NCBI RefSeq assembly: GCF_900129125.1
Contig: NZ_FQVJ01000014.1
Location: forward strand, 1 to 64,000
Source: Acidocella aminolytica 101 = DSM 11237
Lineage (GTDB): Bacteria > Pseudomonadota > Alphaproteobacteria > Acetobacterales > Acetobacteraceae
Length of the DNA stretch: 64,000 nucleotides
Direction: 5' to 3'
The translations under genes were made by a program, and so were the position numbers. A model generated the notes under the pieces. The model did no database searches. It was given only the letters and a program-made list of their open reading frames with translations, and was not told where the DNA came from. Position 1 is the first letter of the stretch, and every line of letters starts with the position of its first letter. This document shows, in pieces, positions 20,893-36,009 of this stretch.

Positions 20893-21138
20893 ATGAGACG
20901 CCCTCAACCGTCTACTCAATTTGACTGTTTCATGGTGTCAAAAACCTTGAAGGGCCAGGATGAATGGCAAATATTAGACGGCTTGCCTCCCGACATCCCT
21001 GTCAGCCAATCCGAAATTGAAGTGATACAAAGGTACTGCCGTGACGCCCTTGAAACCATCTTCCGCTCAGCTCCTCATGCCAGCGATACGCGCAGCCCTA
21101 TACCTGCGCGTATCGACAGGAAGGCAGGCAGAAAATGA
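20893..21138 (+). CDS. Small hypothetical protein upstream of serine recombinase
   Basis: The 81-aa frame starts ATG (MRRPQPSTQFDCFMVSKTLK) and includes DIPVSQSEIEVIQRYCRDAL. It overlaps the start of the recombinase gene by 62 bp in another frame. Small frames in this place often precede large serine recombinases. No motif identifies it. It may encode a directionality factor or be spurious. Confidence 0.4.
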   Translation: MRRPQPSTQFDCFMVSKTLKGQDEWQILDGLPPDIPVSQSEIEVIQRYCRDALETIFRSAPHASDTRSPIPARIDRKAGRK

Positions 21139-22738
21139 CCTCTCGATACCCGACCAGCGGCGCCAAACAGAGGCATATTGCCTTGCCAAAGGGTGGGTGG
21201 TCTCGGAAGCGTTTATCGAGCCTGGCGCATCGGCAACAGATGATAAACGACCAGAATTTCAAAGGCTCATGGAGGCTGTCTCCGCGAAGCCAAAGAGATT
21301 TGAAGTCGTGGTCGTCCACTCGTTTTCTCGGTTTTTTAGAGACCATTTTGAACTAGAGTTTAACGTCCGACGTTTGCAGAAGCTGGGCGTTCGTTTGGTC
21401 TCAATCACACAGGAATTAGATGATAGCCCTTCATCAAATATGATGCGGCAAATCTTGGCGATGTTCGACGAATATCAATCCAAAGAGAACGCCAAGCATA
21501 CACTAAGGGCAATGCGGGAAAATGCCCGGCAAGGATTCTGGAACGGCTCCCGCGCGCCATTTGGTTATCGCGCAGTGGAGGCGGAGAAGAGAGGGCAAAA
21601 GGTCAAGAAGCGGCTCGATATTGACCCTGTCCAGGCTGAAGCTGTGAGGTTGATTTTTGACCTATACTTAGACGGCGACGGCCAATCAGGCGGCCTTGGC
21701 CTCAAAGCCCTCGTAAACAGATTAAATTCGCAAGGCATGCGGACCCAATCAGGGGCAAAGTTCTCCTGCAAATTCGTCCACGAAGTTTTGACCCGGCCGG
21801 CCTATACCGGGAATCACAGGTTTGACGTGACTGAAGCCAAGACTGGGCGCAAAAAACCTGACGAAGAGATGATTGCGGTAAAGATTCCAGCCATTATCAC
21901 AGCCAGCCGCTTTGCGGCCGTGCAGGATAAGTTAAGGCTTAATGCTCCCCGCGTGACAGCCCCTCGGATTGTGAATAGCCCGTGCCTGCTGACCAGCATG
22001 GCTGTCTGCGCAACATGCGGCGGCGGCATGACGCTGCGGACCGGAAAAAATGGCCGATATAGATACTACACCTGCGCCTCGCAGGCTCGCAAAGGTAAGA
22101 CCGCCTGCAAGGGGCGGTCAATTCGCATGGACCTGCTCGACACACTGGTAATGCAGCACTTGGCCGAGCGTCTTCTGACAAAGGAGCGCTTAGGGGAGGT
22201 TTTGGGATCGCTGCTGGCGCAGTACGCGGCCAATCAGAACAGCGATGCTGCGCGCGCTGAAAGCCTTCGTACCGCTGCACGGGAGGCTGAACAGAAGCTT
22301 CATCGCATGTACGCCGCCATCGAAGACGGCATTATCGAGCTCTCCGACCCAACCCTTAAAGCGCGCCTCGACGCACTTAAGGCGCGGCGCGATGAGACAA
22401 AACGGCTTTCTGAGATGGCAGACGCCCCGGCTGGGATTGCGCCGCACATTACGGAAGAGATGATCGACAATTTCGCGCGCGGTTTGCAGGGAAGGTTACT
22501 AGACGGGCCCGTTGCCATGAGAAAGGCATATGCCCAAGCGATTGTAGATCGCATCGAGGTAGACGACCGAGAAATCCGAATTTTTGGCCGTAAGGATAAG
22601 CTGCTCAGCCAACTGATGTCCGAAAAGCCAAAACTACGTTCAAAAGTTCTCAGTTTTGGACGGCAATGGCGTCCCCAAGGGGATTCGAACCCCTGTTACC
22701 GCCGTGAAAGAGACGTTTATAAGACTGTCTCTGTCTAA
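21077..22738 (+). CDS. Large serine recombinase
   Basis: From the ATG at 21077 (MPAIRAALYLRVSTGRQAEN) the product is 553 aa. The resolvase domain has catalytic S13 in RVSTGRQ and downstream SFSRFFRD and the DEYQSKENAKHTLR helix. This is followed by a Recombinase domain (GFWNGSRAPFGYRAVEAE), a zinc-ribbon segment (CATCGGGMTLRTG ... YYTCASQARKGKTACKG) and a coiled-coil C-terminus. It probably integrates or excises the surrounding mobile DNA. Its last codons run through the 44-bp tRNA-Glu repeat and then into the neighbouring element, so its present C-terminus (after RRER) is a by-product of the later tRNA-site insertion. The earlier GTG at 21041 is a less likely start. Confidence 0.88.
   Translation: MPAIRAALYLRVSTGRQAENDLSIPDQRRQTEAYCLAKGWVVSEAFIEPGASATDDKRPEFQRLMEAVSAKPKRFEVVVVHSFSRFFRDHFELEFNVRRLQKLGVRLVSITQELDDSPSSNMMRQILAMFDEYQSKENAKHTLRAMRENARQGFWNGSRAPFGYRAVEAEKRGQKVKKRLDIDPVQAEAVRLIFDLYLDGDGQSGGLGLKALVNRLNSQGMRTQSGAKFSCKFVHEVLTRPAYTGNHRFDVTEAKTGRKKPDEEMIAVKIPAIITASRFAAVQDKLRLNAPRVTAPRIVNSPCLLTSMAVCATCGGGMTLRTGKNGRYRYYTCASQARKGKTACKGRSIRMDLLDTLVMQHLAERLLTKERLGEVLGSLLAQYAANQNSDAARAESLRTAAREAEQKLHRMYAAIEDGIIELSDPTLKARLDALKARRDETKRLSEMADAPAGIAPHITEEMIDNFARGLQGRLLDGPVAMRKAYAQAIVDRIEVDDREIRIFGRKDKLLSQLMSEKPKLRSKVLSFGRQWRPQGDSNPCYRRERDVYKTVSV
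22667..22710. repeat. Distal attachment-site copy (44-bp direct repeat of tRNA-Glu 3' half)
   Basis: These 44 bp are identical to 35934-35977, which form the CCA end, T-arm, variable loop and anticodon-loop side of tRNA-Glu(TTC). Bases just outside differ at both ends (A versus T on the left, A versus G on the right), so identity is exactly 44 bp. This copy has no 5' tRNA half and is not a tRNA gene. It marks the far end of the integrated element. Confidence 0.92.
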
Positions 22739-22852
22739 TCTAGTCAATTTATACTGTTGGTTTATATAGTATTTTATTCGTCCGTGTTTGTTCTTGTATA
22801 ATGAGGTGTAACAATATATATTAGACATATATTTGACATTTGAGGTGATTAG

Positions 22853-24145
22853 ATGGCCCGCACTGTTCGCGATGCCAGACTTGAAAGCCGGAACGCCCGA
22901 AGCACCCTGAAACCATCGGGCAAGCCTTACTATCGGTCTATCGATGAGGGATTGCACCTAGGCTATCGCAAAGGCGTCCGCGGAGGAGGCAAGTGGGTTA
23001 TGCGCCGCTATTTGGGCGACCAGAATTATGCTGTTGAGGTTATCGGCACATCTGACGACAACCTGGACGCGGATGGCGAAGAAGTCCTCACCTTCTCCCA
23101 GGCCCAAAATAAAGCACGGGGATTGTTTATCCAAGCGCGTCGCCGCGCTGCTGGACTGCCTGAAGACGCAGGCCCTTATACAGTCCAAAAGGCCGTTGAA
23201 GAATATCTGGTCTGGTTGGAACAAAGCCGGAAGTCGGCCAAGGATTCTCGGTCACGCGCCGAAGCGCTAATTTATCCAATCTTGGGAAGCGTGGAGTGCG
23301 CGAAGTTGACGAATGTGCAGATCCGCAACTGGCGAGATGGCGTGGCCAAGGCTCCCCCCCGCCTGCGTACCCAAAAAGGGAAAGAGCAGAAATTCAAGGA
23401 GGTTGATCTTGATGACCCTGAAGAAATCCGGCGCCGCCAAGCATCTACTAACCGCGTCCTGACAATCCTGAAGGCGGCTCTCAATCATGCGTGGAGGGAA
23501 CACAAAATTGCTTCCGATGACGCTTGGCGCCGGGTTCAGCCGTTTAAAGAGGCTGACGCGGCTCGCGTGCGTTATCTGACGCTTGCCGAGGCTAAGAGAC
23601 TGATAAATGCCGCACAAGGTAGCTTCCGCCCGCTGGTTCAGCTGGCGTTGCTCACAGGTTGCCGCTTTGGGGAGTTGGCTGCACTGAGGGTTGCGGACTT
23701 TAACCCTGACTCCGGAACACTGCACATTCGGACCAGCAAAAGCGGCAAAGGGCGGCACGTTGTACTGACCGAAGAAGGGGTAGCGCTGTCTAAAGCGCTA
23801 ACCCTGGGCAAAGCCTCTACTGACCTGCTCCTTACCCGTGACGGCGGGGAGCCTTGGAAGAAATCAACACAGACGCGCCCGATGGATGAAGCGTGCAAGG
23901 CCGCGAAGATCGCACCGGCTATCGGCTTTCACATACTCAGGCACACCTATGCTAGCCTAAGCATCATGAACGGCGCCCCCCTATTGGTGGTGGCCCGCAA
24001 CCTCGGACACGCTGACACGCGGATGGTTGAGAAGCATTATGGTCACTTGAGTGCAACCTACATGGCCGAGGCAGTGCGGGCTGCGGCGCCACGGTTTGGG
24101 ATGGAGCGAGGCAATAACATCACACGAATTGAGGACGTGGCATGA
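22853..24145 (+). CDS. Tyrosine recombinase (integrase)
   Basis: The 430-aa protein has an N-terminal arm-binding region, a SAM-like core-binding domain (about 105-235) and a catalytic domain with all expected residues. These are R271 (TGCRFGEL), a lysine in SKSGKGRHVV, H360-x-x-R363 (HILRHTYASL), H386 (NLGHADT) and the nucleophile Y396 (EKHYGHL). It starts 142 bp from the att copy at 22667-22710, the usual place for the integrase of a tRNA-targeting element. The next gene overlaps its stop by ATGA. The upstream AT-rich 100 bp should hold its promoter and arm sites. Confidence 0.95.
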   Translation: MARTVRDARLESRNARSTLKPSGKPYYRSIDEGLHLGYRKGVRGGGKWVMRRYLGDQNYAVEVIGTSDDNLDADGEEVLTFSQAQNKARGLFIQARRRAAGLPEDAGPYTVQKAVEEYLVWLEQSRKSAKDSRSRAEALIYPILGSVECAKLTNVQIRNWRDGVAKAPPRLRTQKGKEQKFKEVDLDDPEEIRRRQASTNRVLTILKAALNHAWREHKIASDDAWRRVQPFKEADAARVRYLTLAEAKRLINAAQGSFRPLVQLALLTGCRFGELAALRVADFNPDSGTLHIRTSKSGKGRHVVLTEEGVALSKALTLGKASTDLLLTRDGGEPWKKSTQTRPMDEACKAAKIAPAIGFHILRHTYASLSIMNGAPLLVVARNLGHADTRMVEKHYGHLSATYMAEAVRAAAPRFGMERGNNITRIEDVA

Positions 24146-24834
24146 GCCGGGCAAGCGGTACGATGGTAGATGATAAGATTAGTTGTGAAGAGTTTACGGC
24201 TGAAATAATCCACACGATCTTGGAATCGGGAGTAATGAAGTCAGGGAATATCCCGAAGCAAGGCGATCCGGCATGTGAAGCGCTTGCAGGACTATGCAAT
24301 CACTACCGTAAGGAGGTATTGTTTACGAACGAACCTTGGCAAGCTAAGAAGCAGAAAAAAAATAAGATTACAAAATCAATACAATCACTTCTCGCATTAC
24401 TGCCTGAATATCGTGAAAGTTATAAGAGCAGGGTGTCGGAGGCTGAGTTGTGGGTGCGAGAAAGTACAGACGACGCAACCCGTGAGATTCTGAAGAATCT
24501 TTTCAAGAGAGCAGATATTGAGAGGCAAGTATTTGAGAGCCTGTTGAGTTCTTTATCCCAGGCAATCGATATGGATATTCCCAGGCTGGAGGATGAACGA
24601 ATAGCTAATGGAGATGGGAAGCGGACAAATTGGGACGAACCTCTATACCTCGTGTTCAAGGGCCGCGTTCCCTCCGCATCAGACCGGGATGCGTTCCGCT
24701 TCATAGCTGCTGTCAATAATAGAATTCGTGGGATTTGTGCTCCAATCGAAGAAAGCAAGATAGAATCTATACGCCAAAACCTAATGACACGGGGAACGCT
24801 TAGGCTTGAATTCCGGCCGTCCGGTGACTTTTAG
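24142..24834 (+). CDS. Hypothetical protein coupled to the integrase gene
   Basis: The 230-aa product starts at an ATG overlapping the integrase stop (ATGA), so the two are translationally coupled. It is largely helical and charged (KKQKKNKITKSIQSLLALLP, NLFKRADIERQVFESLLSSL), with no signal peptide, membrane segment or recognisable motif. AT content is higher than in the integrase gene. A cargo or integration-control role is possible but not shown. Confidence 0.65.
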   Translation: MSRASGTMVDDKISCEEFTAEIIHTILESGVMKSGNIPKQGDPACEALAGLCNHYRKEVLFTNEPWQAKKQKKNKITKSIQSLLALLPEYRESYKSRVSEAELWVRESTDDATREILKNLFKRADIERQVFESLLSSLSQAIDMDIPRLEDERIANGDGKRTNWDEPLYLVFKGRVPSASDRDAFRFIAAVNNRIRGICAPIEESKIESIRQNLMTRGTLRLEFRPSGDF

Positions 24835-24961
24835 GGTATGTAGATAACACAATCATCTGTTTCTACTATGTAGAAACGCCACTCAGCCAAATTTACAAAT
24901 TCAATTCAGAATCTCATTCGGCAATATAACCTCCATAGACAAACGCAAACAAAGGTGATCT

Positions 24962-25156
24962 ATGCGAGACGTTGTATTTACCGTTGATGAGTTCTGCAAA
25001 AACAACAAGATTTGCCGAGCTACTTATTATAATCTCAAAAATCGTGGCATGGGACCGGCTGAGCTTAGGCTTGGCCGCGCCGTGCGTATTACTCAAGACG
25101 CGGAAGCCGCTTGGCATCGCAAGATGCAGGCAACGGTCGAGGAAGTGCGCACTTAA
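24962..25156 (+). CDS. AlpA/excisionase-like HTH protein
   Basis: The 64-aa protein reads MRDVVFTVDEFCKNNKICRA followed by TYYNLKNRGMGP and RLGRAVRITQDAEAAWHRKM. This is the winged-helix pattern of MerR-like AlpA/Xis proteins (F-x-V-D-E-F-C, a Y-x-L recognition segment, then a basic wing). In P4-like satellites such proteins control excision or activate the integrase. AAAGGTGATCT lies just before the ATG. An inverted repeat follows its stop. Confidence 0.75.
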   Translation: MRDVVFTVDEFCKNNKICRATYYNLKNRGMGPAELRLGRAVRITQDAEAAWHRKMQATVEEVRT

Positions 25157-25161
25157 AAGGA

Positions 25162-25189
25162 GCAGCCGCCCAGTTTCCCGAGCGGCTGC
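25162..25189. terminator. Stem-loop after the excisionase-like gene
   Basis: GCAGCCGC (25162-25169) and GCGGCTGC (25182-25189) form a perfect 8-bp stem with a 12-nt loop, 5 bp after the stop codon. No T-run follows, so it is a weak or factor-assisted terminator, or an RNA end structure. Confidence 0.45.
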
Positions 25190-25275
25190 GAGTAACGGCA
25201 AAACACTACCAACACTGACAAAAGGTAGATTGCCCGCTCAATGCCGCATTTCAAGAATTTCTGAAAGAAAATTGA

Positions 25276-26466
25276 ATGCAGCAAACGCTTCCGAAGAATA
25301 CAGACCTTGTCCTAAAGTACCGCCCCTTGGCTGCCAAATTAGCTCGGAAATCCTATGTCGATTATGAAGATCTCGCTTACTTTGATCTTCTAGACCTTCA
25401 ACAGGTAGCTTTGATTGGGTCATTCAAAGCTGCCAATAAATATGATCCAAAAAAAGCTAGCTTTGGAACCTATTCTCGATTTTGGATTAAGGCTGAGCTT
25501 GAACAGTTTGTAAGAGAAAATATTTCAACTGTTAAAACCCCCAAAGGGGTGAAAGGGGTTGCCGACGAAGGATTGAATCAACCATCCCTTCAAAAAGATG
25601 GGGAGAGTGCGGAAAACGCCCTGCAAGATACACTCATCTCTGATCCAGAGGATGATCCTAAGTCTGTCGTCTTGTGTGGCATGGAGCGTGCTCAGCTTTC
25701 CTTTGAACAGGATGCAATCGCCCGCTGGATGCTTCGGGAAGCTGAGAAAGCTCTCAAACCAAGAGAAGCCGAAGTTTACCGCTACCGTCGTATCAAGGGC
25801 GAGACACTGAACGCTATCTCCTCGCGGCTTGAAGTCAGCTTGGAGCGCGTCCGGCAGATTGAGGTGAAGGCACAAGAAAAAATCGATGCAGCTTTGAAGG
25901 CACTCAATCAAGCGTTGGAGGATGGCTCACTCATTATCCCTTGGGGGGAAATCAATAAGCAGTTCAACAACGCCTATCGGACATGCGGTAACGCCCGCAA
26001 AAAGCTTACTCCCCAAAATGGTTGGCGCCCAGTACTTACGGATATCCATAAGGAAATCTTGAAGACGCGCTGGCTTTTGGAACCATACAAGCCTGGACAC
26101 AGCGCTGCATTGCCCGGCCAATCCCGAAAGACCCACAACCGGGAAAGCTTAGAAAGCCTTGCTCAGCGGCTTCCGTTGCCTTCCAGCCGCTTCACAGATC
26201 CGGTTGACCATGTCCGGCAGCTTGAAATTGAAGCACTGCGCTATGTCGCGGGTGGCTGGGGTGCGCCTGCATATGACCCAGCTGACAATGCCACCCGGCG
26301 CGCAGGTTGGGGTTGTGCTGGGCGTGGCTTGTCATCAACCGTTGCCGATGAAGGCGCTTTGGAGGCTCGCAGGATGGCCACCCGAGCTGCTGAGGCGAAG
26401 AAAGCCGCTGAGCGTTTGGCAGCACGGCAGCGCGCCCGCGCGGCTAGGCTGACGTGGGCAACATGA
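25276..26466 (+). CDS. Element-borne sigma-70-family protein with extra C-terminal domain
   Basis: The 396-aa product has sigma region 2 at about residues 9-82, with YEDLAYFDLLDLQQVALIGS, YDPKKASFGTYSRFWIKAEL and an aromatic-rich -10 segment. Region 4 is at about 159-205 (LKPREAEVYRYRRIKGETLN, SLERVRQIEVKAQEKIDAAL). Between them is an acidic linker instead of a normal region 3. About 190 residues of unknown, finally Ala/Arg-rich sequence follow. RpoH, RpoD and SigA-type factors are its relatives, but it is not the housekeeping copy (RpoH is at 37772). It would direct RNA polymerase to element promoters, or to helper-phage or host genes. Start ATG at 25276; no strong ribosome site. Confidence 0.8.
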   Translation: MQQTLPKNTDLVLKYRPLAAKLARKSYVDYEDLAYFDLLDLQQVALIGSFKAANKYDPKKASFGTYSRFWIKAELEQFVRENISTVKTPKGVKGVADEGLNQPSLQKDGESAENALQDTLISDPEDDPKSVVLCGMERAQLSFEQDAIARWMLREAEKALKPREAEVYRYRRIKGETLNAISSRLEVSLERVRQIEVKAQEKIDAALKALNQALEDGSLIIPWGEINKQFNNAYRTCGNARKKLTPQNGWRPVLTDIHKEILKTRWLLEPYKPGHSAALPGQSRKTHNRESLESLAQRLPLPSSRFTDPVDHVRQLEIEALRYVAGGWGAPAYDPADNATRRAGWGCAGRGLSSTVADEGALEARRMATRAAEAKKAAERLAARQRARAARLTWAT

Positions 26467-26498
26467 TCCTTTCACTCCCTTCACTCTATCCACTCTTA

Positions 26499-26537
26499 AA
26501 AGGCTTGGTTGCTGAACGCTCCAAGCCTTTCGTTTTT
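26499..26537 (+). terminator. Intrinsic terminator after the sigma-like gene
   Basis: AAAGGCTTGG (26499-26508) pairs perfectly with CCAAGCCTTT (26521-26530), and CGTTTTT follows. It lies 32 bp after the sigma-like gene stop and before the primase-helicase ATG at 26549, so it separates the two transcription units, at least partly. Confidence 0.8.
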
Positions 26538-26548
26538 AAGGAACACTA

Positions 26549-28651
26549 ATGCAACTCGACCAGAACGGTCTGACTCCCTCCAAACCTGAAAACGTATCTC
26601 ATCCAGACCTGATGCCAGCATTTAATATTGACTTCCTCGCCTCATCCTCTCGCTGGGTGGCGTGGCGCAACCAAGAGCGCAACGGTAAAATCACGAAAGT
26701 GCCTTATGCTGCGGTTAATCGTATGGCCAAGGCGAATGATCCGGCAACATGGCTTCTCCACGACCAGGCGGAATCTTTGGCTGCTCAGATTGTCGGTCCA
26801 TTGGGTGGCGGCATTGGCATTCAGCTTGGGGAGCATGAGGGCATTGCCCTGGGTGGCATTGATCTTGATAGTTGCCGGGATGAAGGCGGCATCATTGCCG
26901 AATGGGCGCAGGACATTATCGAGCGCTTTGCCTCATACACAGAAGTCAGCCCGTCCGGCACGGGGGTGAAAATCTTTTTCCGCTATGACGGTGCGGATCT
27001 TCCGCAGATTCAGCACGTCATGGGCAGTGCATCGGGGAAGGCATGGAAGCGCCCCGGCAAAGAGCATCCGCCAGCCATCGAACTGCATCTCTGCACCCGC
27101 TACTTTGCGGTGACGGGCGATAAGCTGCCAGACGTACCGACGGAACTGGTGCATATTGAGCGTGAGGCAATCGAAAGCCTGATTCTCAACACCGGTCCCG
27201 CGTTCTGCCGCGACAAGAAGCCCTGTAAGACGGACGGCAACGCACGGCAAAAAATTATCCTTCCTGGGCATCGGGGCAGCAGCGATAAGAGCCGCAGCGC
27301 GATTGCTTTCAGCATTGGCGTCAGGATCAAACGGACCGGTGGCAGCCGCGAAGATCTTAAAGAGGCTTTGCGGACCCACAGCACGGATACGGCGAACTGG
27401 CTTTATGAAAAGGGCTTGCCGGATGGTGAGCGGGAATTGTCCCGCATCTGGGAACGCGCCGGGCTGATGCCGGATGGCCAAGAAATGCCGTCATGGTTTC
27501 CGCAGCTTCAGAAGAACGAAAAATCGGAGCCGCTGGGCAATCTTGCAAATGCCATGATTGCGTTACGCCATGATGAGCAGCTTCAAGACACGCTTGGGTA
27601 TGACGAGATGCAGCGCACGGTCTTTCTGATGCGGCCTGAGCGGCGCCCGGTGACGGACGTGGATGTAAGCGGCGTACAGGAATATCTCCAACTGAAGGGG
27701 CTGCGTAGCATCTCAAAAGACACCATGCACCAAGCGATTGACGCCTATGCACATGAACTGAAGTTTCACCCGGTTCAGGATTATCTCAACAGCTTAAAGT
27801 GGGATGGCGAACCACGCTTGGCGGGATGGCTTAACGCCTATCTCGGGGTTGAGCAGAACGCCTACGCCAGCGGGATTGGCACAATGTTTATGATCTCGAT
27901 GGTTGCCCGCGTGTTTCAGCCGGGCTGCAAGTGCGATTACATGCTGGTGCTGGAAGGCGCCCAGGGCGCGCGAAAATCCACGGCTTGCGCTATTCTGGGC
28001 GGCACTTGGTTCTCCGATAATCTCCCAGACGTGCGGAACGGGGGGAAAGATGTAGCGATGCATCTTAACGGCAAATGGCTAATCGAGGTGGCGGAAATGT
28101 CAGCCCTTGATAAAGCTGAAGCCGCAGCCCTCAAGGCATTCATCACGCGCCCAGTAGAACGCTACCGCCCTACCTATGGGCGCAAGGAAGTAATCGAGCA
28201 GCGCCAATGCGTGTTCATTGGTACAACCAATAAGACCGCATATCTCCGCGATGAGACGGGTGGGCGGCGCTTCTGGCCGGTTAAGGTTGGCATCATCGAT
28301 ACGGATGCACTCACCCGCGACCGCGACCAATTGTTTGCCGAAGCAGCGGCACGTTACCAGCGTGGTGAAAAATGGTGGCCGGATGGATCATTTGAGACTG
28401 AGCATATCAAACCGCAGCAGGAAGCGCGCTATGAAGCCGACGCCTGGGAGCATGAAATTGCCCGCTATCTGGTGACGCAAAGCAAGGTGACTGTTGGACA
28501 AGTAGCAAAAGAAGCGCTGCACATCGAAACGCCAAAACTAGGCACTTCAGAACAGCGCCGGATCGCCGCAGCTTTGGAACGCTTGGGTTGGAAACGCGGG
28601 AACAGGACAGAAGCAGGGCGCTGGTGGATTCCTGGCGAAAGTGCGTCATGA
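26549..28651 (+). CDS. Primase/VapE-type superfamily 3-like helicase
   Basis: The 700-aa protein has an N-terminal primase-polymerase-like domain (RWVAWRNQERNGKITKVPYA, GIALGGIDLDSC, SPSGTGVKIFFRYDG, ELHLCTRYFAVTG). A C-terminal virulence-associated E ATPase domain follows, with Walker A G470-AQGARKST-478 and VIEVAEMSALDKAEA-like Walker B sequence (KWLIEVAEMSALDKAEAAAL). GTTNKTAYLRDETGGRRFWP is diagnostic of VapE. Such primase-helicase fusions are the replication initiators of satellites and some phages. The last codons overlap the first iteron, so initiator and origin are physically joined. The ATG is preceded by AAGGAACACTA. Confidence 0.9.
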   Translation: MQLDQNGLTPSKPENVSHPDLMPAFNIDFLASSSRWVAWRNQERNGKITKVPYAAVNRMAKANDPATWLLHDQAESLAAQIVGPLGGGIGIQLGEHEGIALGGIDLDSCRDEGGIIAEWAQDIIERFASYTEVSPSGTGVKIFFRYDGADLPQIQHVMGSASGKAWKRPGKEHPPAIELHLCTRYFAVTGDKLPDVPTELVHIEREAIESLILNTGPAFCRDKKPCKTDGNARQKIILPGHRGSSDKSRSAIAFSIGVRIKRTGGSREDLKEALRTHSTDTANWLYEKGLPDGERELSRIWERAGLMPDGQEMPSWFPQLQKNEKSEPLGNLANAMIALRHDEQLQDTLGYDEMQRTVFLMRPERRPVTDVDVSGVQEYLQLKGLRSISKDTMHQAIDAYAHELKFHPVQDYLNSLKWDGEPRLAGWLNAYLGVEQNAYASGIGTMFMISMVARVFQPGCKCDYMLVLEGAQGARKSTACAILGGTWFSDNLPDVRNGGKDVAMHLNGKWLIEVAEMSALDKAEAAALKAFITRPVERYRPTYGRKEVIEQRQCVFIGTTNKTAYLRDETGGRRFWPVKVGIIDTDALTRDRDQLFAEAAARYQRGEKWWPDGSFETEHIKPQQEARYEADAWEHEIARYLVTQSKVTVGQVAKEALHIETPKLGTSEQRRIAAALERLGWKRGNRTEAGRWWIPGESAS

Positions 28652-28836
28652 AAGTGCGTCATGCCGTTTTTAATCCTCGATAAACTGAGATGGAAAACGA
28701 CAAACATAAATGCACTGATGCCCCTCAACCATGACGCACCATGACGCAAAATCCCCTATGTAGCGGTTTGGCGAATAGGGGATATTGTTCAGGAGTATAT
28801 ATAAGGGGATGTGTCAGATGCGTCATGTGCGTCATG
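28641..28836. other. Candidate replication origin: six iterons around an AT-rich segment
   Basis: GTGCGTCATG occurs at 28641-28650, 28654-28663 and 28827-28836, and as ATGCGTCATG at 28818-28827. It also occurs inverted at 28730-28739 and, with one mismatch, at 28740-28749. Between the copies lie a 9-bp inverted repeat (ATCCCCTAT 28751-28759, ATAGGGGAT 28775-28783) and an AT-rich stretch with TATATATAA (about 28797-28804). Iterons flanking AT-rich DNA directly beside the initiator gene are the layout of satellite origins such as those of SaPIs. Confidence 0.75.
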
Positions 28837-28985
28837 ATTCAGCCGAGAACTCCACGAGCGCATGTCTAGCTAAGGGTTTTGAGAGAGGCTGATGAACGCT
28901 CAAAAACCTCCGAGTTTTTAGATAATAAATACATCCAACCTTTGATATGGAGAAAATCATTTTAAAGCAGCCTGAATAGCGAAAC
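28837..28985. other. AT-rich intergenic region downstream of the iterons
   Basis: No gene or strong repeat is seen between the iteron cluster and the next small frame. The DNA is AT-rich (for example ATAATAAATACATCC) and may serve as the duplex-opening part of the origin and as a promoter for the small-gene row. Confidence 0.4.
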
Positions 28986-29249
28986 GTGATAGCAAAGAAT
29001 TTCCGCGTCAGTTACATAAATTCCAAATTTTTAGACTGGTATATTTTCACAGAGTTATGGATTTTCTGGATTGTTCGCGCACTTCAGTTTGGAAACCTTT
29101 CCCCTTATTGTTTTGAGTGGAAAAACGATGAAACCGCCCATACAAGGCGGAAACAAACAACAATAGAAGACATTAGAGTGTTGTTATTTAATGCTTCTAT
29201 TGAATTTAAGTCCCGTTCTATCCAATATATGACCTATAACTACTGCTGA
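28986..29249 (+). CDS. Doubtful small ORF, aromatic-rich
   Basis: A GTG-started 87-codon frame (MIAKNFRVSYINSKFLDWYI) lies in AT-rich DNA downstream of the origin. Composition (many W, Y, F and I) is as expected for chance translation of AT-rich sequence, and there is no clear ribosome site. Listed because nothing else occupies the stretch. Confidence 0.2.
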   Translation: MIAKNFRVSYINSKFLDWYIFTELWIFWIVRALQFGNLSPYCFEWKNDETAHTRRKQTTIEDIRVLLFNASIEFKSRSIQYMTYNYC

Positions 29250-29263
29250 GATACCCCCAAAAC

Positions 29264-29614: not shown

Positions 29615-29766
29615 GCGCGATGCCCTCTATTCACCCGGCTCGAAAGCGGCGGGTGTTCCTCGGATTAGACGGTGAGTGCCGAGGCGCCAACAAAAACCCC
29701 GTCAGCCCGCGCAGCCCGACCTTTACGGCTGGCGGCGGGCACCCCCTCCCACAACAGGAAAACGCT

Positions 29767-29985
29767 ATGCCTGAACATGAAATAGACCCGATTGAGGTTG
29801 TCGAAGTCGTCCTTCGGAATGCCAAATTCGGCAATGATAACGTGGACAAGGTTATCAAGTTTCTGAAGGCCAACCGGCCCGAAACAGAAGCCCAGATGGC
29901 CGCAGATCGCGCGATCTTGCAAGAGCAGCAAGAGAAGTTTGTCGAGCGCTTCCCGAACAGCAAACGCCTGGGGGGCACCCTTTAA
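29767..29985 (+). CDS. Small acidic phage-type protein
   Basis: The frame is open from 29620, but ATG at 29767, after an AGGAAAACGCT site, gives a well-behaved 72-aa product (MPEHEIDPIEVVEVVLRNAK, later FVERFPNSKRLGGTL). The end motif F-P-x-S-x-R-L-G resembles the end of the protein at 30181 (RFPEAARLGK), so the two may be related or bind a common partner. Its stop overlaps the next ATG by one base (TAATG). Confidence 0.6.
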   Translation: MPEHEIDPIEVVEVVLRNAKFGNDNVDKVIKFLKANRPETEAQMAADRAILQEQQEKFVERFPNSKRLGGTL

Positions 29986-30176
29986 TGGGCAAATCCTCCA
30001 AAAAGCTGACCCTTGAGGAGTGTGAAGAACGCGGACGGCAGATCGCACTCCGCAAAATGGCGAAGGACGCCGCACTTGAAGAGGCCGCGTCTGCCAAGCC
30101 GGAGATGGCGTTTGATGTTTGGCCGCCCCTCGTAACTCAGAAAGCCCGCAAGGCGGCTTCAACAAAGAAGGACTAA
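29985..30176 (+). CDS. Small basic protein of the terminase operon
   Basis: The 63-aa, Lys/Glu-rich product (MGKSSKKLTLEECEERGRQI) starts in the TAATG overlap with the previous gene, which supports real translation. No domain is recognised. The charged helical sequence could bind nucleic acid or a partner protein. Confidence 0.55.
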   Translation: MGKSSKKLTLEECEERGRQIALRKMAKDAALEEAASAKPEMAFDVWPPLVTQKARKAASTKKD

Positions 30177-30180
30177 CCAA

Positions 30181-30384
30181 TTGGTTGAACAATCCCCTTT
30201 AGACCGGGCTTGCGCCATTTTGCGCGAAACCAAAATGCCGGAAAGCAACATTGCCAAGGTCCGCAACCATCTTGCGCGGCTGCTGGAGCAAGGCGCCAGT
30301 GAAGGCGAGAAAGGCGAAATGGCCCAGGATGGCGCCAACGTTTATCATAGCCGGTTCCCCGAAGCGGCGAGGTTGGGCAAGTAA
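30181..30384 (+). CDS. Small protein of the terminase operon
   Basis: The 67-aa frame starts with TTG at 30181 (MVEQSPLDRACAILRETKMP), 4 bp after the previous stop, and its stop overlaps the next start (TAATG). It ends YHSRFPEAARLGK, resembling the C-terminus of the 29767 product. Tight packing makes it likely real. Function unknown. Confidence 0.5.
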   Translation: MVEQSPLDRACAILRETKMPESNIAKVRNHLARLLEQGASEGEKGEMAQDGANVYHSRFPEAARLGK

Positions 30385-31097
30385 TGGCGCTTATCCGCAA
30401 ACAGAAGCCCGAAGCCACACCAGCCCGGCAGGCATTGGCAACCGCGCTGGCTGAATACCGCGAATTGCTGGGCCAAATCGAGGCCCAGAACAACGCCGAA
30501 GCCGCCGCGCAACGGCAGATCGAGACCTACCGCAACGCCATGTATGAGGCGCAGGGTAGGCTTGACCAGGCGCAAGAGGACGCAGCCGAATATATGCTGG
30601 CCCAGGCGACAGGCCGCGCCATGGAGCGGCCTGTAACAGCCCCCCAGGCCCGTGCAGATCTGGAAGCCGCCAAGAGCAACATGGAAGCGGCAAAGGCGGC
30701 AGAAGCCGAACTGAAGCGCCAGGGTGCGCACCTTCCGCAATCCCTGCAATGGCGCAAGGAAAAGCTGACCAAGGCTGCGGCGGCAGTTGTCGCGGACCTT
30801 CCCGAACCCGTCCGGCTAGTGGAGCGCTTCCAGCAGTTGCAGCGCGAAATTCTGGAAACCGGCCACGCGATTATGTGGCTTAGCAGCGTTGGCGCCTTGG
30901 ATATGGGCCGGGTTGAGGTGCAAGGCGAATATGGCAAAATGCTGGAATTTTCCGCAGCCGAGAAGGCGATTAACGCACTGACGCAGACGCCGGGGCAATG
31001 GAAAGTGGAGCAGACAGACCGGGGCGCGGACTTTGAACGGCTGGCTATCTTTTACGACGCGCTCCAACGCGACCCTGACGCTGTGTTCCAGGGCTGA
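30384..31097 (+). CDS. Coiled-coil protein of the terminase operon
   Basis: The 237-aa product is dominated by Ala/Glu/Gln-rich heptad sequence from about residue 15 to 135 (RQIETYRNAMYEAQGRLDQA, RADLEAAKSNMEAAKAAEAE), consistent with a long coiled coil. The C-terminal 90 residues look globular. It starts in a TAATG overlap and ends 3 bp before the large terminase gene. A scaffold or terminase partner is conceivable but not shown. Confidence 0.65.
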   Translation: MALIRKQKPEATPARQALATALAEYRELLGQIEAQNNAEAAAQRQIETYRNAMYEAQGRLDQAQEDAAEYMLAQATGRAMERPVTAPQARADLEAAKSNMEAAKAAEAELKRQGAHLPQSLQWRKEKLTKAAAAVVADLPEPVRLVERFQQLQREILETGHAIMWLSSVGALDMGRVEVQGEYGKMLEFSAAEKAINALTQTPGQWKVEQTDRGADFERLAIFYDALQRDPDAVFQG

Positions 31098-31100
31098 GCG

Positions 31101-32525
31101 ATGCCGGAAGCGAACATTCTTGAAGCAATGGACCATCCGCAGATCTTCGCGCCCCACTTCAAAGGGGACACGTGGGGCTTCTGGCGCATGGTCCTGGCCG
31201 CGTTGTTTGCCTTGCCGATGGATGACAAGACTCTGGCGTTGTACCGGCAGCATACAGGCCGTACAGCGCCGCCTGAGGCCCCCTTCACAGAGATGGCGCT
31301 GGTTATCGGGCGGCGTGGCGGCAAGAGCCAAATCCTGGCTCTGATTGCCGTCTATCTGGCCTGCTTCCGGGATTACGAACCTTATCTGTCACCGGGCGAG
31401 GTTGCCACCATTGCGATCATCGCAGCCGACCGCAACCAAGCACGCACGATTTTTCGTTACGTCAAAGGCTTGCTTTCGTCAGTGCCGGTTCTCGCTCCAA
31501 TGGTCGAGGATGAAACCAAGGAAACGCTAACGCTCAACAACCGCGTGCAGATTGAGATTGCTACGGCCAGCTTCAGGGTGACGCGCGGCTATACCTTCGC
31601 GGCGGTGCTGGCGGATGAGACGGCTTTCTGGCGCGATGAATCTTCAGCCAACCCGGACACGGAGATCTTTCGTGCCCTGCGCCCTGGGCTGGCGACCATC
31701 CCCAATTCGCTGCTGCTGAATGCTTCCAGCCCCTATCGCCGCGCTGGAATTCTCTGGAAAGCCTACCAGCGCAACTATGGCAAAGATGGCGCGCGCGTGC
31801 TGGTGGTGAAGGCGTCCACGTCAGAAGCCAATCCCAAAATCAATCCCGCCATTATTGCCGAGGCGTACGAGGAAGATCCCGAAAGCGCCGCGTGTGAGTA
31901 TGGCGGCGAATTCCGCACTGACATTGCGGACTTTATCTCTCGCAGCGTGCTGGAAGCCTGCATTGAAACCGGCTGCCATGAGCGCCCCCGCGTGGCCGCC
32001 GCAGGGCGCTATGTGGCCTTTATCGATGCGGCTGGTGGGTCTGGCACAGACAGCATGACCATGGCCATCGCGCATGAGGATAAGACACTGGGGCCTGTGC
32101 TGGACGTACTCCGCGAACGCAAGCCGCCTTTCAGCCCGGAAAGTGTGGTGATGGAGTTTGCCGCTACACTGAAATCATACGGGATCTATAAAGCAGAATC
32201 TGACAAATGGGGCGGCGATTGGGTTGGTGAAGCCTTCCGCAAGCAGGGCATCACGGTCACCCCCAGCGCTGCGCCGAAGTCGGAAATCTACCGCGAGTTG
32301 CTGCCCCTGCTGAACGCGCACAAGTGTAGCCTGCTCGATCATCCCAGGCTGGTGCAGCAGCTTTGCGGCCTGGAACGCCGGACAGCACGCGGGGGCCGCG
32401 ACAGCATCGATCATGCTCCCAACGCGCACGATGACGTGGCCAACGCCGCAGCGGGCGCCTTGGTACTGGTAAGCAAAGCGCCTGCGATGATGGTTTTCAC
32501 CAAAGCATTTTTGGATAGGATATGA
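31101..32525 (+). CDS. Terminase large subunit
   Basis: The 474-aa protein has the two-domain layout of TerL. The ATPase has Walker A G70-RRGGK75-S and Walker B VLADETAFW with D172/E173. The motor motif LLNASSPYRRAG resembles the coupling motif. The RNase H-like nuclease contributes AFIDAAGGSGTDS and late acidic residues in NAHDDVANAAAGAL. Such enzymes package phage DNA into a procapsid. Here no portal or capsid gene follows, so packaging would have to use structural proteins of another phage. The start is 3 bp after the previous stop. Confidence 0.9.
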   Translation: MPEANILEAMDHPQIFAPHFKGDTWGFWRMVLAALFALPMDDKTLALYRQHTGRTAPPEAPFTEMALVIGRRGGKSQILALIAVYLACFRDYEPYLSPGEVATIAIIAADRNQARTIFRYVKGLLSSVPVLAPMVEDETKETLTLNNRVQIEIATASFRVTRGYTFAAVLADETAFWRDESSANPDTEIFRALRPGLATIPNSLLLNASSPYRRAGILWKAYQRNYGKDGARVLVVKASTSEANPKINPAIIAEAYEEDPESAACEYGGEFRTDIADFISRSVLEACIETGCHERPRVAAAGRYVAFIDAAGGSGTDSMTMAIAHEDKTLGPVLDVLRERKPPFSPESVVMEFAATLKSYGIYKAESDKWGGDWVGEAFRKQGITVTPSAAPKSEIYRELLPLLNAHKCSLLDHPRLVQQLCGLERRTARGGRDSIDHAPNAHDDVANAAAGALVLVSKAPAMMVFTKAFLDRI

Positions 32526-32562
32526 TGACATTAAAGGGTTCGTTTGAGAGGAGCCGTTCATA

Positions 32563-33021
32563 ATGGACGGCTCCAACCATCCAGCCGCCCCGGAAAAACC
32601 CGCTGGCGTAAATGCCGCACACCGGGAAACGGCAATCTGCATCGAGATCAGGCCCCCGCTTTTACGCTCCCCTCATTCTGGTGGACCGCTAGTGGACCGG
32701 GCGCGGTGCGAGATCGACGGTGTACTCTATCAGGCCGAGAGCAAAAACGGGGCTATCTGTGAATTGTGCCGGGTGCTGGTTGCTGCTGGTGTATCGGATG
32801 CCCCGTGGCAGGCTTTCAGGGGCGGCAAGCTGGCTATGACCGGGCCGTCTATTCACCGCATGGCGCAGCGTATGGTCTCCGAGGGGGACAAACACGGCCC
32901 GCGCTGGGAGAGGTGGAGGCCCTACCCGGAGCGATGCCTTAAACCCCCGCGCGCGTGTTTACGGGGCAGACTAAGCGCAGCTTTGAGCGTTCGGAACATG
33001 TGGCTGAATGGATGCGGCTGA
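32563..33021 (+). CDS. Hypothetical protein downstream of terminase, 3' end possibly frameshifted
   Basis: The 152-aa frame starts ATG (MDGSNHPAAPEKPAGVNAAH). Its middle reads like real protein (AWQ-like segment DAPWQAFRGGKLAMTGPSIH). The final 30 residues (PPRACLRGRLSAALSV) look like out-of-frame translation. Another frame from about 32955 gives a plausible tail, FTGQTKRSFERSEHVAEWMR, ending near 33072. A frameshift at about 32935-32955, or two overlapping genes, would explain this. No family recognised. Confidence 0.5.
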   Translation: MDGSNHPAAPEKPAGVNAAHRETAICIEIRPPLLRSPHSGGPLVDRARCEIDGVLYQAESKNGAICELCRVLVAAGVSDAPWQAFRGGKLAMTGPSIHRMAQRMVSEGDKHGPRWERWRPYPERCLKPPRACLRGRLSAALSVRNMWLNGCG

Positions 33022-33114
33022 CGGGAACCAAGGCGCAAGTTACGCCAGTGAAAAGTCGTCGAGAAGATGGGTAAGGCGAACCAGGGGGGCGATGCCATTG
33101 GCTACAGTTGTTGC

Positions 33115-33918
33115 TTATTCGATGGGGGTTTCGATGAATCCTTCAGGATAACCACGCCCCATGACTTCAAAAGTCGCATCACCTTGGGAATGGATATGCA
33201 AAATCGCCTCGGGCTTAAGAGGGCGCGTGACGCAGAAGTCGAAGCCACGTTCTTCCGACTTGCAGCCGATAAATCCAGCAAACGTCGACAGGATATTACT
33301 AGCCGCTGAATAGATCGAATTTGTTGCATCGAGCGGCGCACGAATTTCAATAATTCGCGCTTTTCCGATAGTTTGCAGCAGAGATTTTATTTCAGTATCT
33401 TTCTGCCAGAAGTAAATGCCTTCACCGCCCCAGTTGTTAAGCAAAAGTTCGACTAGGCAGCTTTGGGTCGAAATTGGATTCGAGGTCATCCAAAATTGAC
33501 CAGATCGAATGTCACCTTGCTCGTGAAAGGGGCTGGACTCGAATATCCTTTGAGCATTTTGCGCTAGGATTATGCCCGCTGAAACTTGTGCTGAAAGTCT
33601 CTTTTTGATTCCCTCTAAGCTGGATAGAATGAGTCCCTCGCGCTGCATCGCCTGCACTTCTTCATCGGTCATGCGCGTGTAATGCCATGCCCGGATTGAG
33701 CGCTCAGCCATGAAGGGCATGAGGCTTTCCTTTAACGCTTGATATGGCTTTGAATAAGGATTCGATGGAGGATAGACTTGGTGATTTGACGCCTCTCGTT
33801 CAAGAAACAGTCTATGATCGGTTTCTAGATATTGTTGAATTAGTCCCGTAGCGGCCCATAAGAGCTCAAGCAAATCATCATCGAATGTTTCGACATTCCA
33901 AACGTCGATAAATGTCAT
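33115..33918 (-). CDS. Cargo protein of the element, unknown (HYT motif)
   Basis: The 267-aa product starts MTFIDVWNVETFDDDLLELL. From about residue 75 it reads RAWHYTRMTDEEVQAMQREG, then LILSSLEGIKKRL. An H-Y-T followed by a helix and a Gly-containing turn is reminiscent of several NAD-binding ADP-ribosyltransferase-fold families, but the later acidic motif is not obvious. The C-terminal part contains FAGFIGCKSEERGFDF. It is oriented against the terminase operon in AT-richer DNA, as cargo genes often are. Function is open. Confidence 0.65.
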   Translation of the reverse strand: MTFIDVWNVETFDDDLLELLWAATGLIQQYLETDHRLFLEREASNHQVYPPSNPYSKPYQALKESLMPFMAERSIRAWHYTRMTDEEVQAMQREGLILSSLEGIKKRLSAQVSAGIILAQNAQRIFESSPFHEQGDIRSGQFWMTSNPISTQSCLVELLLNNWGGEGIYFWQKDTEIKSLLQTIGKARIIEIRAPLDATNSIYSAASNILSTFAGFIGCKSEERGFDFCVTRPLKPEAILHIHSQGDATFEVMGRGYPEGFIETPIE

Positions 33919-34010
33919 GTACCTTTCAACCTCACCCCAGCCTCGCCTCAGTTCTCAGGAATGAACCCCATCCAGCGAATTCTAGGCACGCTTGATTAAA
34001 AGAAGGCCGA

Positions 34011-34331
34011 TTATTCTTCCCAAACTCGAGATTGCTCATTCCCCCAACCTTCTTTTTGCGATTTACTTAGGCCGGGATTTTTTTTCAATTTGAAAAAAAC
34101 ACGATCAGGTACGTCAGCAGGACGCCAACCCAAGATGATTCCAGCAAACCATGATGTTTTGTCCTGGTATTCGTGGAGATGAAGTTCAGCTCCAATCGCT
34201 TTCTCTGCAATGTCTGGCGTAATATGCCAACGTCCGCTTTCAAATACTCCGCCCCCGATGTGTGTTAAATTGCCTGATTGTTGGCCAGACTTTGCTATCA
34301 CATGCAGGCGGATGAGGCGGGATTTTTTCAC
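34011..34331 (-). CDS. Small hypothetical protein paired with an RHH protein
   Basis: The 106-aa product (MKKSRLIRLHVIAKSGQQSG) contains GGGVFESGRWHITPDIAEKA and KTSWFAGIILGWRPADVPDR. It overlaps the upstream ribbon-helix-helix gene by 4 bp (ATGA), so they form a pair. The GGVFESGRWHI-type sequence suggests a small beta-rich domain. Toxin-antitoxin organisation is possible from size and arrangement, but the toxin family is not recognised. Confidence 0.6.
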   Translation of the reverse strand: MKKSRLIRLHVIAKSGQQSGNLTHIGGGVFESGRWHITPDIAEKAIGAELHLHEYQDKTSWFAGIILGWRPADVPDRVFFKLKKNPGLSKSQKEGWGNEQSRVWEE

Positions 34332-34522
34332 TTGGCTTCGCGCGCCTTCTCCAGCCCCAGCTCAATCAGCCGACGGATTGCTTCTGCATCGCGTTTCACC
34401 CGGTGCTCGAACTGATAATTCTCAATCCTCTTCCAGAGGCCTGTGGGCAGCGAGACACTTTTCCTGATAATCGGATCGGGCGATTCTTCGGACATATCAT
34501 CACAATAGAAGTTTTGCACCAA
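34328..34522 (-). CDS. Ribbon-helix-helix (CopG/ParD-like) DNA-binding protein
   Basis: The 64-aa frame (or 55 aa from the ATG at 34495) contains RKSVSLPTGLWKRIENYQFE and AEAIRRLIELGLEKAREAK. This is a short beta strand with alternating hydrophobics followed by two helices, the RHH fold of CopG/ParD/Arc-type repressors. It probably autoregulates the two-gene unit with the 34011 gene. The stop overlaps the next start. Confidence 0.75.
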   Translation of the reverse strand: MVQNFYCDDMSEESPDPIIRKSVSLPTGLWKRIENYQFEHRVKRDAEAIRRLIELGLEKAREAK

Positions 34523-34962
34523 TGGTGCAAATGGTGCTTGATCGCTTGTGCGCAGCGGCGCAATGGTGCGTTTGCACCACTCGACTGGACGTGGAAGGTG
34601 GATGCTCCCCGCCTAACCCTGAACATGGAGAGAGAGTTTCCCATGTCCAAAACTGTAGACAGCCCTACCATACCAACCCCGCGCCGCCGCAACCTGCTTG
34701 CGATGGCGCCGCTTGCCGCGATGGCCGCAACCATGCCCGACAGACCGCGCAAACGCCATTACGCCTGCCTTGTATAAAGCCCATAGCCTTTCCCGCGCCT
34801 TGGATTTTATGGCGCGCATCTGTTGAGGCGGTGAATAACGCGGCTTATGACGCCATCATTGCCGCTTTCGACAATGCCGAAGCCCTTTGTGGAGATTTAA
34901 GGAAGGCAGCAGCATGAGCGAAGCAACCAAATACCCAGAAGGATGAGGCGGAATGACCATCC
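34523..34962 (+). pseudogene. Remnant of a small Acetobacteraceae-type gene with frameshifts
   Basis: This stretch lacks an intact gene. A plus-strand frame starting ATG at 34643 reads MSKTVDSPTIPTPRRRNLLA, then MAPLAAMAATMP, a twin-Arg-like N-terminus, and is soon out of frame at about 34735. A later frame gives NNAAYDAIIAAFDNAEALCG and ends at 34917. I recall small proteins of this layout in acetic acid bacteria. Internal deletion plus frameshift is the likely history. Confidence 0.4.
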
Positions 34963-35244
34963 CTACCTCCACCATAGAAGGTGACGGGCAGGATCACACT
35001 CGACAAAAATTTCAGTTACACCGCCCGTCTTTTCACGACCGGATTCGCAACTCCCCTCTGTTTCTGGGTGCTTGAGACGCCACCAAGCTTGCCTGACGAC
35101 GAGGTCTTTTCCATATGGCTCTGGCTTATTGGGGCGCTGAATTGACAAATAGCTACCGATAGCAGGCACTTTAGGTAAATCGAATTTCAAGCTATAATTG
35201 GGCTTAAGACAACCAACTTCTCTATCAACAATGACTTGAGGCAT
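34963..35244 (-). CDS. Hypothetical protein divergent from the ART-like gene
   Basis: The frame opens at 35316, but ATG at 35244 (MPQVIVDREVGCLKPNYSLK) avoids overlap with the divergent gene and gives 93 aa. The sequence KVPAIGSYLSIQRPNKPEPY has the look of a compact beta domain. With the ART-like gene starting at 35308, 63 bp of AT-rich DNA would serve as a shared promoter. It could be the partner or immunity protein of that gene; this is positional inference only. Confidence 0.5.
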   Translation of the reverse strand: MPQVIVDREVGCLKPNYSLKFDLPKVPAIGSYLSIQRPNKPEPYGKDLVVRQAWWRLKHPETEGSCESGREKTGGVTEIFVECDPARHLLWWR

Positions 35245-35307
35245 GTCACATTCTTCCGAAATAGAAACATTATCAAGCAGTTCAGGGTCGTACCAAAAGA
35301 CAATTTG

Positions 35308-35859
35308 ATGAACCAAAAAGATTTTTTTAATGCTCTTTTCGGTGCGGCCCCTGAGGATACGCGCGAACTTATCCCAAGGAATGTCGATTTAGAGTTTTCA
35401 TTATCCTTGGTCACAGAAGTTGAGCGACGCTCACCATTATCTCTAGCTGTCAAAATCATTCTTCATTCATTATGGATAGAACGAGGACACTTCATTCGCA
35501 GCTGTCTGAATGACGATGATATGCTTGCTGATTTCTTGTGGCGGTCTCTTCCCTTGTATTCTGGAGGGGGGCGAGAGTTATACCGGGGAGAAGCCGTTAA
35601 AAGGTGGATTCAAGGCCGTGTGGGGTTCTGCTGGACGGATAAACTGGAAATCGCGGAAATGTTCGCCAAAGGTTATAACGCCTTAGAACCGGATGGAGGT
35701 GTTGTCCTAAAAACTTTTTGTCCCAAAGAGGCAATAATCTCTGAGCCTAACAATCACAGCAGATGGCTGGGGGAGAATGAGTATACTGTCGATTCACGAC
35801 GCTGCCATACTATCGAAGAAATATGTCGTTATCCGGCTGTTAAAGGCAACACAGTCTAA
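35308..35859 (+). CDS. Putative ADP-ribosyltransferase-fold protein
   Basis: ATG at 35308 (MNQKDFFNALFGAAPEDTRE) gives 183 aa; the frame is open from 35236. The C-terminal half has the order of motifs of the R-S-E class of ADP-ribosyltransferases: R93 in ELYRGEAV, then GFCWTDKLEIAEMFAKGYNA (the S/C-W-T plus A-x-x-F-A pattern), then E156-N-E158-Y in GENEYTVD. NAD would be the donor; target unknown. It lies next to the intact tRNA-Glu, at the cargo end of the element, where toxins and anti-phage genes are common. Base composition is AT-rich relative to the core. Confidence 0.65.
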   Translation: MNQKDFFNALFGAAPEDTRELIPRNVDLEFSLSLVTEVERRSPLSLAVKIILHSLWIERGHFIRSCLNDDDMLADFLWRSLPLYSGGGRELYRGEAVKRWIQGRVGFCWTDKLEIAEMFAKGYNALEPDGGVVLKTFCPKEAIISEPNNHSRWLGENEYTVDSRRCHTIEEICRYPAVKGNTV

Positions 35860-35933
35860 GGATAAATAAGGCGGTATATTATCCAAATATTGGACAACCA
35901 AGAAATCAAACTAATTTAAGTGCCTGATTTTAT

Positions 35934-36009
35934 TGGCGTCCCCAAGGGGATTCGAACCCCTGTTACCGCCGTGAAAGGGCGATGTCCTAGGCCTCTAGAC
36001 GATGGGGAC
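35934..36009 (-). tRNA. tRNA-Glu (TTC anticodon), CCA encoded
   Basis: On the minus strand from 36009 the sequence starts GTCCCCATCGTCTAGAGGCC and ends with acceptor strand TGGGGAC, discriminator G and CCA (35934-35936). The anticodon loop CTTTCAC carries TTC, and the T-loop is GGTTCGAATCC. Its 3' 44 bp are repeated at 22667-22710, so this gene is the integration target and was kept whole by the element. Confidence 0.97.

Follow-up and report, generated by a model that had tools for sequence, protein, structure and literature searches.

Introduction

Why should a contig carry a block of DNA that is bounded by copies of a tRNA gene end and encodes a motor for packaging DNA, without a recognisable shell to package it into? 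The question is raised by positions 22667-35977 of a 64,000-nucleotide stretch of Acidocella aminolytica 101 = DSM 11237 (assembly GCF_900129125.1, contig NZ_FQVJ01000014.1, positions 1 to 64,000), here called the window. We conclude, with a probability of about three in four, that this element is an integrated phage satellite which has its own motor and would take shell, portal and tail from a helper phage, and whose relatives add parts that determine size. The conclusion is based on an attachment (att) site in a tRNA gene, the element's own integrase and replication genes, an intact-looking large terminase subunit (TerL), the lack of shell genes and a recurrent layout. A satellite had been proposed in an earlier, sequence-only reading, and the att site, the gene content and the same arrangement in many other genomes support it. 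Integration is read from the att repeat, and the gene families suggest excision, replication, packaging and dependence on a helper.

Boundaries and gene content of the element

The element of about 13.3 kb is flanked by a 44-nt direct repeat, 100% identical with a spacing of 13,267, which is the sole direct-repeat family of at least 18 nt within 21-38 kb of the window. The 35-nt core of the repeat has 2 matches in the window, compared with 0 in 100 shuffles. ARAGORN places one tRNA in the whole window, tRNA-Glu(ttc) at 35934-36009 on the minus strand, which makes the right copy the 3' end of this gene. The repeat search, the shuffles and ARAGORN thus bear out the perfect tRNA-Glu repeat described earlier.

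Seventeen open reading frames (ORFs) of the element were scanned with Pfam and PHROGs, leaving out the ORF at 34522-34917, an 87-aa ORF at 28986 and shorter ORFs (Table 1). The integrase, the sigma-like protein, the VapE-type primase-helicase and TerL named in the sequence-only reading all have family matches, its iterons are found as repeats of TGCGTCATG, and its AlpA-like factor has a family match which is weak. TGCGTCATG or its complement occurs at about six places in 28641-28837, a figure given without a computed chance expectation. The proposed gene order holds as well, with the correction that the cargo at its end lies on both strands.

Besides TerL, no structural family (portal, capsid, tail or lysis) was matched at E<=0.01 among the 17 ORFs, and neither a protease nor a tape measure gene was found there. 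The absence of portal, protease, capsid, tail and lysis frames therefore stands for the scanned ORFs, the one weak structural match being that of a 237-aa coiled-coil protein to a PmgS-like head-morphogenesis family (PHROGs, E 0.065). P4-like satellites carry helper-exploitation genes of the sid/psu/delta type; the general Pfam and PHROGs scans of the 17 ORFs gave none of these families, and no search by name was made. No relaxase lies within the element, and padloc recognised no anti-phage cargo at 0.01 among the nine ORFs scanned besides the coiled coil.

The large terminase

TerL matches phrog_2 (6.8e-21) and, slightly below the curated cut-off, Pfam TerL_ATPase (1.6e-4), with no match in NCBIfam. 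Walker A, the DE of Walker B (172-173) and D309/D445, which we take to be the ATPase motifs and the nuclease residues, respectively, all fall in invariant columns of 24 aligned relatives. The gene is single-copy in the host genome and apparently encodes an intact phage-type packaging motor. Its nearest relatives, 74% and 72% identical, come from contigs of metagenome-assembled genomes (L085 and L086), and the window TerL groups with both in the tree (support 0.90). In L040/L072, L041 and L051, TerL is about 650 aa long and extended at the C-terminus.

Recurrence of the arrangement in other genomes

In the genome searches TerL relatives were counted at E<=1e-20, and they are found in 27 of 395 genomes of the order (16 of 84 genera) and in 4 of 385 genomes of the class, the host genome included in both; one TerL of the order search (G164) carries an internal stop. 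Scanning of GTDB contigs gave 314 candidate stretches, 225 of which are TerL relatives, and the best 80 of the 225 were kept. These 80 include members from Acetobacteraceae, Bradyrhizobium, Methylobacterium, Mesorhizobium, Rhizobium, Phyllobacterium, Nitrobacter, Afipia and others, and a few GTDB relatives are metagenome-assembled genomes labelled Nitrospira, Acidobacteria or Gammaproteobacteria. An IMG/VR scan with the single TerL as query found nothing; with the TerL alignment, 133 of 174 stretches are relatives. On the two plasmids that were looked at, RefSeq names the TerL relative 'hypothetical protein', so such elements have probably been overlooked.

After removal of 18 duplicates from 109 loci, 91 non-redundant loci remained. 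An integrase of the main cluster lies upstream of TerL in 65 of them, and 36 of these 65 have a repeat of at least 12 bp shared with a tRNA (searched only beyond TerL, without a shuffle control). The att-like repeats of these 36 loci are 13-55 bp long (at least 17 bp in 31), the loci span 8,016-18,504 bp (median 13,382), the integrase is on the strand of TerL in 33 and a gene like that of the small terminase subunit (TerS) is present in 27. The order of integrase, replication genes, TerS-position gene, TerL and tRNA recurs in many other genomes. There are exceptions: 26 of 91 loci have no main-cluster integrase upstream, 29 of 65 have no tRNA repeat, partly from contig ends, and in L003 the tRNA is on the integrase side. 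In the TerL tree, 30 of the 35 att-bounded members fall in one clade of 89, together with one of the three capsid-bearing members and none of the four portal-bearing ones; the nodes of this clade are weakly supported (0.33 or none).

Some relatives occur in free form. Contigs that resemble closed circles, with 51-123-bp terminal repeats, come from Acetobacter pomorum (L048; 14,168 bp) and from IMG/VR (L174, L177, L186 and L242; 8.2-9.8 kb), among 89 loci examined, many of which are not whole contigs. The plasmid NZ_CP134887.1 (Komagataeibacter nataicola; L252) has its first 2.8 kb repeated at 15,225 and thus holds tandem copies of about 15.2 kb with TerL twice, together with DUF2213, VapE and ParA, and no integrase is listed in its first 18 kb. 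The coverage in the contig titles is 66.7 for A. pomorum and 335 for K. nataicola, with no baseline to compare. An IS1182 transposase is annotated near one copy on the plasmid.

Plasmids that carry ParA and have no integrase listed, and a relaxase element that adjoins the window element on the left, would also suit an integrative element or plasmid whose TerL-like ATPase-nuclease serves another purpose, e.g. DNA processing, and not virion packaging. We regard this as improbable, since no relaxase is inside the window element and the relatives pair TerL with tape measures, hubs, a head protease and scaffold domains.

Virion genes in the relatives

Profile matches in the relatives include a DUF2213 head maturation protease and tail completion, Dit-like, baseplate hub and tape measure proteins. 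By label, at least one virion-type gene is present in 19 of the 36 att-bounded elements and a tape measure in 10, 3 of these 10 only via clustering. PHROGs identified tape measures in 6 of 10 large ORFs in one scan, and the large ORFs of L037, L050 and L138 are tape measures as well; in the scan of ten, L033, L133 and L144 had no match and L161 had one of unknown function.

Portal and capsid genes were looked for in 84 ORFs of at least 230 aa downstream of TerL in 35 att-bounded relatives, 55 of which were scanned together and the ten largest apart, the remaining 19 being already identified clusters or near-duplicates. No portal was found among the 25 families listed, out of 29, for the 55 ORFs, nor in the ten largest ORFs, and one member among the 55 gave major-head matches. 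In L106 (Jiella), an att-bounded element, TerL is followed by genes for an S78 protease and an HK97-type capsid, with no PF04860 portal. PF05065 was found in 30 of 61 genomes searched, outside the elements in those compared, except in L106. Among 41 IMG/VR records, PF04860 is in 7 and PF05065 in 6. In L217 and L234, neither with PF04860, a capsid gene follows TerL at a distance of 2.1 kb. In L238, L214, L195 and L194 (the last below the cut-off) a portal lies at most 2.5 kb from a TerL that is 43-47% identical, and in L179, L184 and L216 it lies more than 30 kb away.

The portal beside TerL in four IMG/VR records indicates that the TerL family of the satellites also serves real phages. The element might accordingly be the remnant of a decayed prophage from which the structural genes have gone while terL stayed by chance, and it does hold several unassigned ORFs. 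We consider this unlikely, because the TerL frame is open and its motif columns do not vary in 24 relatives, size, order and att are similar across 36 loci of many genera, and the nearest relative, L085, keeps the order TerS candidate, coiled coil, TerL (with a tail-completion gene as well). Close relatives within full prophages, the other finding that would speak against a satellite, are absent among the 36 att-bounded loci (ORFs of at least 230 aa after TerL; one locus with its own capsid gene), and the phages with a portal are distant ones.

L106, L217 and L234 appear to be intermediate between satellites with only a motor and satellites like the capsid-forming phage-inducible chromosomal islands (cf-PICIs). 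They would also be expected if the window element were a cf-PICI stripped of its head genes, which is the least probable of the alternatives and in our view very improbable: such capsid-bearing cases number just 1 among 36 att-bounded loci and 2 among 41 IMG/VR records, and around the window element the tree shows mostly capsid-free layouts, though deeper nodes are weakly supported.

Small terminase candidate and coiled-coil protein

A relative of the 116-aa protein precedes TerL in 64 of the 91 non-redundant loci, less than 200 bp away in 44. Its predicted structure is all-helical (pLDDT 91.8), and a BFVD fold search lists a 'terminase small subunit' at rank 4 (E 0.85). By position only, it is a candidate for TerS. 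The 237-aa coiled coil, with no fold match at E<=0.001, is a candidate scaffold or capsid-size factor; its padloc match to JetC (6.4e-4) is probably coiled-coil noise.

The 72-aa and 67-aa proteins share an RFPxxxRLG end. Neither was accepted as a scaffold (scaffold-domain hidden Markov model E 0.075 and 0.099 in a database of about 25 proteins; hhalign probability 2.3%), and the phage scaffold motif of six phage proteases is absent from both. The match of the 63-aa protein (E 0.002, 8.7 bits) was taken as chance.

Search for the helper

The Acetobacter phage phiAO1 (L056; LC644971.1) is one of a group of phages of acetic acid bacteria that are described as having contractile tails (PMC8566455). 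Satellite proteases align with that of phiAO1 in the protease domain only (52-67% identity), and a separate satellite protein aligns with the C-terminal scaffold part of the phage protease (32-50% over 42-93 aa). The relatives' hubs (28-35%), Dit-like proteins (35-39%) and completion proteins (25-31%) also align with those of phiAO1, and two tape measures do so only N-terminally. The coiled-coil family occurs in 8 of the 36 att-bounded elements; all 7 besides the window element carry a phiAO1-type gene, compared with 4 of 28 elements without the family, though the elements are not independent and several come from Acetobacter. Only this co-occurrence points to a phiAO1-like helper in the case of the window element.

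A C-terminal stretch of TerL in two Acetobacter elements is 53% identical to phiAO1 over 34 aa (E about 2e-5, 34 proteins), and the same stretch in the window TerL is 41% identical (E 0.012). C-terminal mimicry of phiAO1 was kept as a lead only, the stretch being partly a general nuclease motif and the tails variable.

The phiAO1 genome has host-type genes scattered through it (catalase, superoxide dismutase, peroxiredoxin and sorbosone dehydrogenase), and near-identical phiAO1 capsid genes occur in other Acetobacter genomes. Possibly phiAO1 is a domesticated particle.

Several results weigh against a satellite with such a helper. The host genome has no match to PF05065, PF04860, PF05136 or the phiAO1 capsid protein; PF09979 is unmatched there too, but so were the controls of the same search. 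The phiAO1-type capsid shows no enrichment among genomes with a satellite: 6 of 27 have it, and the 72 of 395 overall would predict about 4.9. Apart from the 34-aa stretch of TerL, the window element has no phiAO1 homologue, and the tail and protease genes that relatives have are missing from it. For the TerS candidate, PDB and BFVD gave no fold match at E<=0.001. Moreover, the structural-gene scan of the relatives as a set covered only ORFs of at least 230 aa downstream of TerL.

Features and surroundings of the element

The sigma-70-like factor is unusual in a satellite, and a relative with 31% identity is found in L050. To the left of the element lie a TrwC-relaxase gene (17017-19851) and then a large serine recombinase gene (21041-22738), which encodes 565 aa with the satellite present and 560 aa with a different C-terminus when read across the empty site.

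Table 1. Features of the window element, with positions in the window
Feature	Position	Strand	Support or remark
attL, 44-bp repeat	22667..22710	+	inside 3' end of adjoining serine recombinase gene
Tyrosine integrase, 430 aa	22853..24145	+	Pfam Phage_integrase 2.1e-23; phrog_1 1.3e-58
230-aa protein, start overlapping integrase stop	24142..24834	+	no significant family
AlpA/excisionase-like helix-turn-helix (HTH) protein, weak, 64 aa	24962..25156	+	HTH_17 E 0.076; phrog_66 E 0.0042
Sigma-70-like factor, 396 aa, C-terminal extension	25276..26466	+	Sigma70_r4 3.9e-11, r2 2e-8
VapE-type primase-helicase, 700 aa	26549..28651	+	VapE-like 1.2e-79
Iteron-like repeats TGCGTCATG, both orientations, candidate origin	28641..28837	.	
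Small-terminase candidate, by position, 116 aa	29264..29614	+	all-helical model
72-aa small protein, inner start (ORF from 29620)	29767..29985	+	alignable with 30181-30384; no family
63-aa small protein	29985..30176	+	no family
67-aa small protein, TTG start	30181..30384	+	alignable with protein of 29767..29985
Coiled-coil protein, 237 aa, family common to relatives	30384..31097	+	
TerL, 474 aa	31101..32525	+	PHROGs and Pfam
152-aa ORF after terL, uncertain gene	32563..33021	+	no family
Cargo, 267 aa	33115..33918	-	no significant family
Cargo pair, 64-aa ribbon-helix-helix-like repressor and 106-aa protein	34011..34522	-	phrog_4738 3.3e-6 (64-aa protein)
Cargo, 117 aa, uncertain, overlaps next ORF	34963..35316	-	
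Cargo, 207 aa	35236..35859	+	phrog_30882 (PHROG of unknown function) 2.9e-36
attR, 44-bp repeat = 3' end of tRNA-Glu(ttc)	35934..35977	+	

Proposed life cycle

We infer the role of TerS, docking on the portal, transfer, the identity of the helper and remodelling, as follows. The integrase would recombine the satellite into the 3' end of tRNA-Glu. Upon induction or helper infection, the xis-like HTH protein and the integrase would excise it, and the VapE primase-helicase would replicate it from the iterons. The TerS candidate and TerL would select satellite DNA and pump it into a helper procapsid; loading by this pair through the helper portal is the most likely route. The helper would probably be a contractile-tailed phage of phiAO1/DUF2213 type, whose shell assembly the coiled-coil protein may tune. 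In the relatives, helper parts might be rebuilt to satellite size by an added tape measure, a baseplate hub or a protease or scaffold domain that stands free.

A broader proposal is tentative, and we put its chances slightly below even. It holds that these elements form a widespread, undescribed alphaproteobacterial satellite family with a TerS-candidate/TerL motor and no portal or capsid; the motor would come from the satellite, as would the parts that measure (scaffold or protease domain, tape measure, hub), and the helper would contribute the bulk parts, leading to hybrid heads and tails, and the C-terminal tail of TerL may be tuned to the helper portal. No description of such a family was found by title or abstract opening in a partial coverage of the literature, and a described equivalent may exist. 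If the reading is true, a large bacterial class has satellites that parasitise phages by substituting a DNA motor of their own for the helper's instead of redirecting it, and relatives that exchange the parts controlling the size of head and tail. These elements would then provide a naturally occurring test case for the docking of a foreign terminase on a portal, in culturable, non-pathogenic Acetobacter, Komagataeibacter and Gluconobacter.

Comparison with known satellites

Phage-inducible chromosomal islands (PICIs), including those of Staphylococcus aureus (SaPIs), carry an integrase, an AlpA-type regulator and a primase-replicase, and rely on the helper TerL. The window element resembles classical PICI/SaPI and P4 elements in its integrase, primase-helicase and small size, and perhaps in its weakly AlpA-like regulator, whereas these are described as using the helper TerL (PMC10690885) and the window element encodes its own. 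Capsid remodelling by scaffolds is known from PICI/SaPI and P4 (PMC10690885). Another small integrated element, the Pseudomonas satellite AH14b (16.8 kb), is packed in the capsid of another prophage; it is related to P4, and no TerL of its own appears in the parts of its description that were available (PMC4936722). Virion-encapsidated integrative mobile elements (VEIMEs) and Tycheposons are satellite-like integrative elements of environmental bacteria (PMC11389934).

cf-PICIs likewise encode TerS and TerL (PMC10690885, PMC11389934), the TerS of the window element being assigned by position only. In contrast, cf-PICIs are reported to encode capsid, protease, portal and connectors (PMC10690885, PMC11389934), none of which was found in the 17 ORFs of the window element.

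A tape measure in a satellite is no novelty in itself, because putative tmp genes have been reported in PLE-like elements (phage-inducible chromosomal island-like elements) and in cf-PICIs (PMC12987554). In the PLE of Vibrio cholerae, the satellite's tape measure and baseplate hub are described as replacing those of the helper in chimeric tails (PMC12987554), which makes a similar replacement plausible in those relatives of the window element that encode a tape measure and/or a hub. The window element differs from PLE in having neither, and in encoding TerL. In summary, it is probably a phage satellite with its own motor, distinct from cf-PICIs, and the likeness to PLE is confined to its relatives.

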